A stretch of DNA of 64,000 nucleotides from positions 60,712-124,711 of the forward strand of contig SVIH01000005.1 in NCBI GenBank assembly GCA_015069575.1. Direction: 5' to 3'. Position numbers and translations under genes: made by a program. This DNA comes from Clostridiales bacterium (GTDB lineage Bacteria > Bacillota > Clostridia > Christensenellales > QALW01). The notes below the pieces were generated by a model. The model was not told the DNA's origin, did not search any database, and worked only from the letters and a program-made list of their open reading frames with translations. Shown in pieces: positions 56,299-57,902 of this stretch; position 1 is the stretch's first letter, and every line of letters starts with the position of its first letter.

Positions 56299-56374
56299 GG
56301 GAGCATAGCTCAGCTGGGAGAGCATCTGCCTTACAAGCAGAGGGTCACAGGTTCGAGCCCTGTTGTTCCCACCA
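56299..56374 (+). tRNA. tRNA-Val(TAC)
   Basis: GGGAGCATAGCTCAGCTGGG...CTTACAA...TTGTTCCCACCA. Confidence 0.95.
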
Positions 56375-56379
56375 AAAGT

Positions 56380-56456
56380 GGCCCGGTAGCTCAGTTGGTT
56401 AGAGCGCTAGCCTGTCACGCTAGAGGTCGTGGGTTCGAGCCCCATTCGGGTCGCCA
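56380..56456 (+). tRNA. tRNA-Asp(GTC)
   Basis: GGCCCGGTAGCTCAGTTGG...CTGTCAC...TCGGGTCGCCA. Confidence 0.95.
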
Positions 56457-56466
56457 CTTTTTATTT

Positions 56467-56542
56467 GCGGTAGTAACTCAGCTGGTAGAGTGCCACCTTG
56501 CCAAGGTGGATGTCGCGAGTTCGAATCTCGTCTATCGCTCCA
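56467..56542 (+). tRNA. tRNA-Gly(GCC)
   Basis: GCGGTAGTAACTCAGCTGG...TTGCCAA...CTATCGCTCCA. Confidence 0.94.
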
Positions 56543-56545
56543 TAT

Positions 56546-56619
56546 GGCGCTATAGCCAAGCGGTAAGGCATGGGCCTGCAAAGCCTCCATCCCCGGTTCG
56601 ATTCCGGGTGGCGCCTCCA
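56546..56619 (+). tRNA. tRNA-Cys(GCA)
   Basis: GGCGCTATAGCCAAGCGG...CTGCAAA...TGGCGCCTCCA. Confidence 0.95.
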
Positions 56620-56620
56620 G

Positions 56621-56656
56621 AAAGAAAGACACGATGAAAATCGTGTCTTTCTTTTT
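56621..56656 (+). terminator. Terminator of tRNA cluster
   Basis: AAAGAAAGACACGAT-gaaa-ATCGTGTCTTTCTTTTT. Confidence 0.9.
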
Positions 56657-56660
56657 GTGT

Positions 56661-56833
56661 TTGTGTCCATAGGACACAACATCGTTTGCGAGTTTACTCG
56701 CAACATCATTTGACCGATAGGTCAACATCATTGTCCGCTTGGGGACACAAAACGATGTTGCCTTACGGCAAACAGTGTTGTGCTTCGCACAAACGATGTG
56801 GGCTAACGCCCAACGATGTTGCACTTCGTGCAA
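56661..56833. repeat. Tandem hairpin array 1: eight stem-loops with variable stems and conserved CATCGT/ACGATG linkers in mirror-image halves
   Basis: Stems include TTGTGTCC/GGACACAA, TTGCGAG/CTCGCAA, TTGACC/GGTCAA, TTGCC/GGCAA, TTGTGC/GCACAA, TGGGC/GCCCA, TTGCAC/GTGCAA. Confidence 0.95.
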
Positions 56834-56847
56834 ATATATGGTATAAT
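56819..56847 (+). promoter_or_regulatory. Possible promoter of four-helix-bundle gene, overlapping last array hairpin
   Basis: TTGCAC-N17-TATAAT; the -35 matches consensus only at TTG. Confidence 0.4.
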
Positions 56848-56872
56848 CTGTGTTACATGAGAGGTGTTAGCA

Positions 56873-57229
56873 ATGAAAGAGGATAAACTTTCGGATTTAT
56901 CTATGCAATTATCGGTTGATGTTTTGAAATTAACAAAAGAACTCCGTGCAAAACACGAAACTGTGATTTCAAATCAAATTGGCAGAAGTGCAACAAGCGT
57001 TTGTGCTAATATTGCGGAAAGCAAATACGGTCATAGTCGTGCGGATTTCATTGCTAAACTTGAGATTGCATTAAAAGAAGCAAACGAAACTAGCAAATGG
57101 CTTGAAATGCTTTTTAAATCGGACTATATTGATGAAGCCACCTATAAATCTATTGATAAAACTTGCGCAACAATTCGCATATTATTGATTGCTTCGATTA
57201 AGACAGCTAAAAGCAAATTAAATAAATAA
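56873..57229 (+). CDS. Four-helix-bundle protein (S23 / 23S-IVS / Avd-like family)
   Basis: LTKELRAKHETVISNQIGRSATSVCANIAESKYGHSRADFIAKLEIALKEANETSKWLEML; RBS GAGAGG before ATG 56873. Confidence 0.9.
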   Translation: MKEDKLSDLSMQLSVDVLKLTKELRAKHETVISNQIGRSATSVCANIAESKYGHSRADFIAKLEIALKEANETSKWLEMLFKSDYIDEATYKSIDKTCATIRILLIASIKTAKSKLNK

Positions 57230-57246
57230 CCCAAGGCGGTGATGAT

Positions 57247-57603
57247 ATGAGAAAACTATTAATTTTGTTTTTTGTGCTTCTTTTAGCCCTATCTGTGTGT
57301 GGATGCGGCGCTTCAACAACAGAATCAGATATCGGTTCTACGCCATCGGGCCCTGCTTCATCAACGAATGAAACTTCTAAAATTACTGAAGAAGAGGCTC
57401 TTGAAATTGCGTCACAACATTGGGGCATTAAAAACGGCGATAAAGATGAAGTAACGGGCTTTCCTTTTTTTATTATGCCAGTCGAGAGTTCAAACGATAA
57501 TATTGCAATAGCGCTTAAATGGCTTGTAGACAATCACCATTACTCCACAGTTGATTCAATTGAAATCGACCCTTATACAGGAAATATTGTAAATAGAGAT
57601 TAA
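57247..57603 (+). CDS. Small lipoprotein
   Basis: LILFFVLLLALSVCGCG lipobox; begins 17 nt after the four-helix-bundle gene. Confidence 0.8.
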   Translation: MRKLLILFFVLLLALSVCGCGASTTESDIGSTPSGPASSTNETSKITEEEALEIASQHWGIKNGDKDEVTGFPFFIMPVESSNDNIAIALKWLVDNHHYSTVDSIEIDPYTGNIVNRD

Positions 57604-57660
57604 GAAAATCATGTTTTCAGACATATTTCATTTCGTGTCATTAAGTTCAAAACTCCCAAA

Positions 57661-57692
57661 AATAAAGCACTTGTTTCGACAAGTGCTTTATT
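57661..57692. terminator. Intrinsic terminator
   Basis: AATAAAGCACTTG-tttcga-CAAGTGCTTTATT, 13-bp perfect stem. Confidence 0.9.
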
Positions 57693-57697
57693 TTTAT

Positions 57698-57855
57698 CCA
57701 ATCCGAAGGATTGGTATGTAATCGCCGTTAGGCGTATGTTATCACGCGAAGCGTGTATGTCATCACCGCAGGTGTATTTTCTTTGGATTGATTACATACC
57801 ACCTGCGGTGGATTGCATTCCGACTTCGTCGGATTACATACAATGCGACCCATTG
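57698..57855. repeat. Tandem hairpin array 2: seven stem-loops with variable stems and TATGTNAT/ATTACATA linkers in mirror-image halves
   Basis: CCAATCC/GGATTGG, CGCC/GGCG, CACGC/GCGTG, CACC/GGTG, CCACC/GGTGG, CCGAC/GTCGG, CAATG/CATTG. Confidence 0.95.
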
Positions 57856-57902
57856 ATTTATCACCGCTTTTTTGCTATAAAAGCTAAAAGATAGGTGGTT
57901 TT

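Follow-up and report, generated by a model that had tools for sequence, protein, structure and literature searches.

S23/IVP genes and their hairpin arrays as small mobile units in Clostridia and other phyla

The window, which is the whole stretch of 64,000 nucleotides that was analysed, contains a cluster of four tRNA genes followed by two arrays of hairpins, between which lie a gene of the S23/IVP family and a lipoprotein-like open reading frame (ORF). All of these features are on the forward strand:

56299 to 56619, + strand: cluster of tRNA-Val, Asp, Gly and Cys genes (ARAGORN), the insertion neighbourhood, outside the unit
56618 to 56657, + strand: palindromic A..T terminator at the left edge of unit 1, either the host terminator or the left-most part of the unit
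56658 to 56833, + strand: array 1, made of hairpins, with linkers CATCGT/CATCAT that become ACGATG/ACAGTG past the mid-point inversion
56842 to 56847, + strand: TATAAT −10 box of the S23 gene, 17 nt past a TTGCAC (weak −35 match) in the last hairpin
56873 to 57229, + strand: S23/IVP four-helix-bundle protein of 118 aa (profile matches; PDB 2rld, E=2e-24)
57247 to 57603, + strand: lipoprotein-like ORF, exchangeable cargo (weak PepSY match; lipobox by eye)
57613 to 57657, + strand: conserved right end of unit 1 (GTTTTCAG...GTGTCATTAAGTTCAAAACTCCC), common to L013, L014 and L016
57658 to 57695, + strand: palindromic terminator at the left edge of unit 2
57696 to 57866, + strand: array 2, with a separate linker family (TATGTNATC inverted to GATTACATAC); an array of the same type lies 5' of the S23 gene in L010, which is from a related genome
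57903 to 58364, + strand: membrane protein ORF directly 3' of array 2, the probable cargo of an S23-less unit (compare L015 and L062)

The two hairpin arrays with an S23 gene and a lipoprotein between them, as described in the original prediction, are real. By a count of perfect stems, the arrays are the two densest 200-bp stem-loop stretches of the 64 kb, with 8 hairpins per 200 bp in array 1 and 6 in array 2 (64-kb mean 0.49, next best 3), and their folding z-scores relative to shuffled sequences are −5.8 and −4.4, respectively. Each begins straight after a terminator, that of the four-tRNA cluster for array 1 and the one at 57658 to 57695 for array 2. Within each array, one linker recurs between differing hairpins and flips to its reverse complement mid-array. 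The S23 protein matches PF05635 (E=5e-27, 94.6 bits, cut-off 33.8) and TIGR02436 (E=1e-28, 99.6 bits, cut-off 24), and the ORF has no Pfam match besides S23/IVP. Its nearest solved relative, identified by sequence match only, is PDB 2rld, which has five chains. The promoter of the gene was not called in a consensus scan because its −35 box is weak, and Rfam gave no match for the array or the right end at the loci scanned. The host genome (1.59 Mb in 22 contigs) has only three S23 genes, and each of the three is closely preceded by an array that itself follows a tRNA terminator. It also has an orphan array, of the linker family of the window array, beside a tRNA-Gln gene.

The original prediction took the two arrays as brackets around a single module, which is not how the locus is built: array 1 opens the S23 unit and array 2 opens a second one. 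Their linker families differ, so they are not a matched pair belonging to one element, and since the linker type of array 2 precedes the S23 gene of L010, array 2 belongs to a second S23 subfamily. The window contains two tandem units, the first of which ends near 57,657. The right end of unit 1 is found after different cargo in the window and in the three other loci that have it. The S23 gene is tied to its array, but the lipoprotein, proposed as part of the same module, is replaceable: the 40 nearby downstream genes make up 32 families, with acetyltransferase-, NUDIX- and lipoprotein-like types recognised by eye. Clostridial S23 units are mostly homologous at the nucleotide level only as far as the stop codon of S23, and the genes beyond it differ. 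L045 and L040 represent an orthologous locus, at which the former has cargo of about 800 bp behind its S23 gene and the latter lacks it.

The statistical link between S23 genes and hairpin arrays, which had been named in advance as the critical test of the prediction, holds in a sample of 80 homologous loci, nearly all labelled clostridial; most of these clostridial sequences are MAGs, and related loci are not independent of each other. The 300 bp upstream of S23 contain 17–27 hairpins per kb, against about 3 per kb elsewhere. A 7-mer occurring at least four times is found upstream of S23 in 60/86 close relatives and 34/50 members of other subfamilies, compared with 1/21 distant S23s and 85/1919 background windows. 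The distant clostridial S23s are thus mostly devoid of arrays; we checked four of them as possible rRNA intervening sequences (IVS), and none lies in rRNA. The suggested insertion beside tRNA genes is also borne out, as 50/71 loci have a tRNA in the 230 bp before the array, compared with 1/175 control windows. In 53/75 loci, the array has at its left edge a palindromic hairpin that resembles a terminator, against 2/175 controls. Most clostridial forms have both halves of the array upstream of the S23 gene. Among the units between linkers in the right half of the array, 119/129 (from 65 loci) can pair into stems of 4 bp or more, which happens in 1.2% of controls, and they do so with 43 different self-complementary arms. 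Hence, the pairing is kept while the sequence changes.

Two side observations concern the make-up of the arrays. In clostridial arrays (L001, L109, L113, L154–L156, L163 and others), the centre contains a reverse-complement copy of the 5' arm belonging to the first hairpin or to the terminator, so that the left arm could pair either locally or with the centre; this copy often takes in the CCA end of the tRNA. Near an orphan array in L200 (about 1600–1900), a copy of the tRNA T-arm in inverted orientation (GCAAGGGGATTCGAAGCC) comes after a duplicated tRNA-Glu 3' end and terminator.

The array motifs follow the proteins. We surveyed the S23 subfamilies in 148 genomes of the class and 40 fetched loci. 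Each subfamily has its own linker motif; besides those of the window, we found GTGATGC, GTGAAGT, GCTAAAT, TGAATTG, GTGATATT, TTATGA, ATTTCA and plain TTATTCA heptamers. The identity between S23 proteins correlates with the similarity of their linkers (Mantel r=0.43, 0/1000 permutations), also when restricted to the 31 proteins with less than 70% identity (r=0.29, 0/1000 permutations).

The GCTAAAT family shows that arrays outnumber their partner gene. Three consecutive GCTAAAT linkers have 53, 34 and 26 matches in three genomes (overlapping matches, corresponding to about 8–15 arrays each), and the cognate GCTAAAT-type S23 genes number 2, 1 and 0 in the same genomes, among the S23s examined. 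The reversed triple pattern has one match in the 148 genomes. These arrays are found mainly in S23-bearing genomes (9/11 vs 44/137, p=0.002). Among the 18 copies that were read, many share a right end (GGCATCTAAAT...), which is also present after the cargo of the S23 unit of L205. L205, L263, L264, L266 and L270 are flanked on either side by matching repeats (TAGAATAGA or TATAATGAATTC), which are absent in the other copies; direct repeats at unit ends are clear in few copies only. Right ends vary between subfamilies and are defined for only some of them. Units with an array and cargo but no S23 also lie ahead of S23 units in L015 and L062, and movement in trans is probable for S23-less units that have the ends of an S23 unit. 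Separately, a conserved stretch of 175 bp (CATAGATCTCGTTTGCAAGCATGGAGTAGCACCCCGG...) follows different cargo genes in L062 (at about −455 to −290 from the S23 start), L064, L057 and L072. It has no match in Rfam and is possibly a right end or a structured RNA.

These data bear on two other accounts. Arrays could be ordinary repeats that grew by replication slippage near terminators, with S23 carried along by chance, and heptamer repeats are indeed common in some cyanobacteria and Bacteroidetes, where the mechanism was not reported (PMC4679880). Yet the association, the congruence of linkers and the shared, defined ends go far beyond chance, and GCTAAAT arrays concentrate in S23-bearing genomes. 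We regard this account as largely refuted and its remaining probability as minimal. Alternatively, a site-specific recombinase or transposase of the host could recognise the array or the ends and move the whole as a cassette, of which S23 would be only a cargo or a regulator. The S23-less units with the same ends, the diversity of the cargo, reminiscent of integron cassettes, and the concerted repeats at some unit ends are all in keeping with it. A generic recombinase would not, however, need array families that track their own S23 subfamilies, and we judge this account to be unlikely.

The gene and its array constitute a mobile unit. In the Nostoc strain C052, a unit is present in plasmid pC052_A (L169), and its two flanks are joined without interruption in five other plasmids (L215–L219), one of which is pC052_D from that strain. 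The insertion in pC052_A replaced about 228 bp of host sequence and left no clean target duplication. At a second site, Anabaena cylindrica and Nostoc TCL26-01 (L228, L232) have a unit that separates cas2 from cas1, and the two genes abut directly, with no unit, in two other Nostoc plasmids (L231, L233). The S23 family has earlier been linked to CRISPR adaptation genes (PMC10910872), a link that may be explained by the insertion of the unit between cas2 and cas1. With these empty sites and the dispersed copies, the proposal of a mobile, array-associated element is backed. The empty alleles that it called for were found at the two sites in Nostoc plasmids, but not for the window or, on both sides, for any clostridial unit. 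In the sister genomes of the window, either the tRNA cluster is missing or the sequence breaks off with the contig; the insertion of L116 at Ald has a clean left junction, with the right side lost at the end of the contig; and the search in the genus of G047, which covers two genomes only, gave no two-sided empty site. No enzyme that cuts or joins DNA was recognised inside the unit. As a side observation, S23 units are often within defence loci (L165, L168, L170, L223, L224, L228), which include DISARM/BREX-like, type I restriction, methylase-HEPN and cas1-cas2 loci.

Outside the clostridial sample, we analysed 15 S23 loci of plasmids from six phyla, one of which is a true 23S rRNA IVS. They come from Cyanobacteria, Treponema, Bernardetia, Chlorohelix, Azospirillum and Monoglobus, the latter being a further member of the Clostridia. 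Read by eye, 15/15 have repeat arrays on both sides of the S23 gene, mutually inverted. The tandem score exceeds the 95th percentile of the background on at least one side in 12/15 loci, nearly always with a period of 7. The inverted 8-mers common to both flanks number 3–38 per locus, against a control mean of 1.6, and because 24% of the controls reach 3, the weakest plasmid loci are not significant singly. The simplest form outside the Clostridia is an S23 ORF between inverted arrays, usually with a 7-bp period. In Azospirillum (L229), the S23 ORF is within the 23S rRNA gene, with inverted heptamers on both sides, i.e., it is a real IVS. This locus forms a bridge between the classical insertions in rRNA and the stand-alone units.

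Our explanation starts from the association of arrays with S23, the congruence between linkers and S23, the empty sites free of S23 and the dispersed copies with shared ends. We think it probable that these are very small mobile elements, in which an array is recognised by its own S23 protein and enzymes of the host transfer the strands. The unit plan would comprise a terminator-like hairpin, an array that inverts at its middle, a promoter, usually an S23/IVP gene, an exchangeable cargo and a short conserved right end. An S23 oligomer would recognise the linkers or hairpins of its own array, and this binding would maintain the array. It may also regulate the adjacent S23 promoter, whose −10 box lies just past the last hairpin, in a form of autoregulation. 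The bound protein would bring the ends of the unit together as a mobilising factor, leaving strand transfer to host enzymes, and S23-less units with shared ends would be mobilised in trans. The classical 23S rRNA IVS would be one landing site of the simple form with two arrays. More tentatively, and with somewhat less than even confidence, we suggest that S23/IVP proteins define a new class of mobile elements across phyla, lacking any recognised recombinase, in which a protein that recognises the array of its own subfamily moves its own and S23-less units, and of which rRNA IVS, many heptamer arrays and the clostridial arrays are products.

The nature of the folded form is relevant to another account, in which the array is a structured RNA leader or small RNA bound by S23, making a self-regulating RNA–protein module that spreads passively with its neighbours. 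Stems with a single mismatch in the sense strand of window-type arrays include 22 distinct G.T and 7 distinct A.C cases, against 122 and 120 in the background (Fisher p=0.010). Such an excess would arise from a sense strand that folds as RNA, and it hints at RNA or a single DNA strand as the form that is folded. S23 relatives are also found in RNA contexts, namely rRNA and diversity-generating retroelements (DGRs) (PMC10053308). However, the bias is not significant in the other subfamilies (13 vs 7). Furthermore, most arrays have a terminator before them and a −10 box after them, so that sense transcription across the array is not obvious. Passive spread also leaves unexplained the empty sites and the 8–15 dispersed copies with shared ends. 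We consider such a module conceivable, if rather doubtful.

An enzyme acting in trans was part of the original prediction, and a reverse transcriptase (RT) could in principle copy the RNA of the array, with S23 in a role like that of Avd. The two proteins are homologous (PMC10053308), and a single RT is encoded in the host genome. Nevertheless, RVT_1 is present in about 6/24 genomes with array-type S23 and in 63/148 overall, a difference in the opposite direction (Fisher p=0.07, subject to the incompleteness of MAGs); the RT of the host is about 46 kb from the nearest S23; and the RT-adjacent members in the survey of 148 genomes are weak S23 matches, apparently of a different branch. Mobilisation by an RT in trans is thus not favoured by the data, and we hold it to be very unlikely. 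On the RT itself, we observed that the only RVT_1 of the host (L171, G000:C5:15472-16062) has GxxxSQ-like and YMDD motifs and a phage-tail-like ORF downstream; from its sequence, it looks like a DGR-type RT in a prophage context. Weak S23 matches lie beside RVT_1 on the same contig in G022, G033, G043, G058, G065, G107 and G123, and are probably Avd genes of DGRs, from a branch separate from the array-type S23.

The units resemble several known systems and differ from each. They have a protein of the same S23/IVP family as the 23S rRNA IVS, and L229 has inverted heptamers around its S23 ORF. In contrast, the window unit follows a tRNA cluster, L229 is the only locus found inside a 23S rRNA gene, and the units otherwise stand by themselves, behind tRNA terminators or flanked by protein genes; they have cargo, and some copies lack S23. 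Like REPIN/RAYT systems and MITEs, they are short, dispersed, palindromic, share ends and outnumber the partner gene, but this partner is a four-helix-bundle protein instead of a Y1 tyrosine or DDE transposase, and the array inverts, has many different stems and a linker proper to each protein subfamily. With integron cassettes they share diverse small cargo genes, tandem units and folded sites, whereas each unit has its own promoter and array, and no integrase was found at the loci read. Avd of DGRs is from a homologous fold family with pentameric relatives, yet there is no RT beside array-S23 loci, the single RVT_1 of the host (C5:15472) has no adjacent S23, and, in the 148 genomes, S23s of the array type seem to form a branch apart from the members next to an RT. 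The heptamer repeats of Cyanobacteria, Bacteroidetes and Beggiatoaceae (e.g., TAACTGA) are also tandem arrays of period 7; those described here differ in being linked to S23 genes, which the TAACTGA paper does not mention, nor does it report the mechanism of spread (PMC4679880). We considered a CRISPR array and rejected it, given that the units are hairpins with 43 distinct self-complementary arms and a mid-array inversion, and that the window locus shows no cas genes. In the open-access literature we found no work linking S23 to such arrays. What appears new is the combination of an S23 partner, arrays of its own type and mobility without a recognised recombinase.

The novelty would be smaller if a known host recombinase turned out to move the units. 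If our explanation is correct, DNA units that move with no recognised recombinase would be new to biology, and the heptamer arrays of Cyanobacteria and Bacteroidetes would acquire a partner protein and a testable mechanism. It would also tie heptamer arrays to rRNA intervening sequences and give a role to the S23 family, whose function is unknown. Finally, the cargo genes and the insertions in cas1-cas2, restriction-modification and DISARM/BREX-type regions suggest that these units have effects on genome plasticity.
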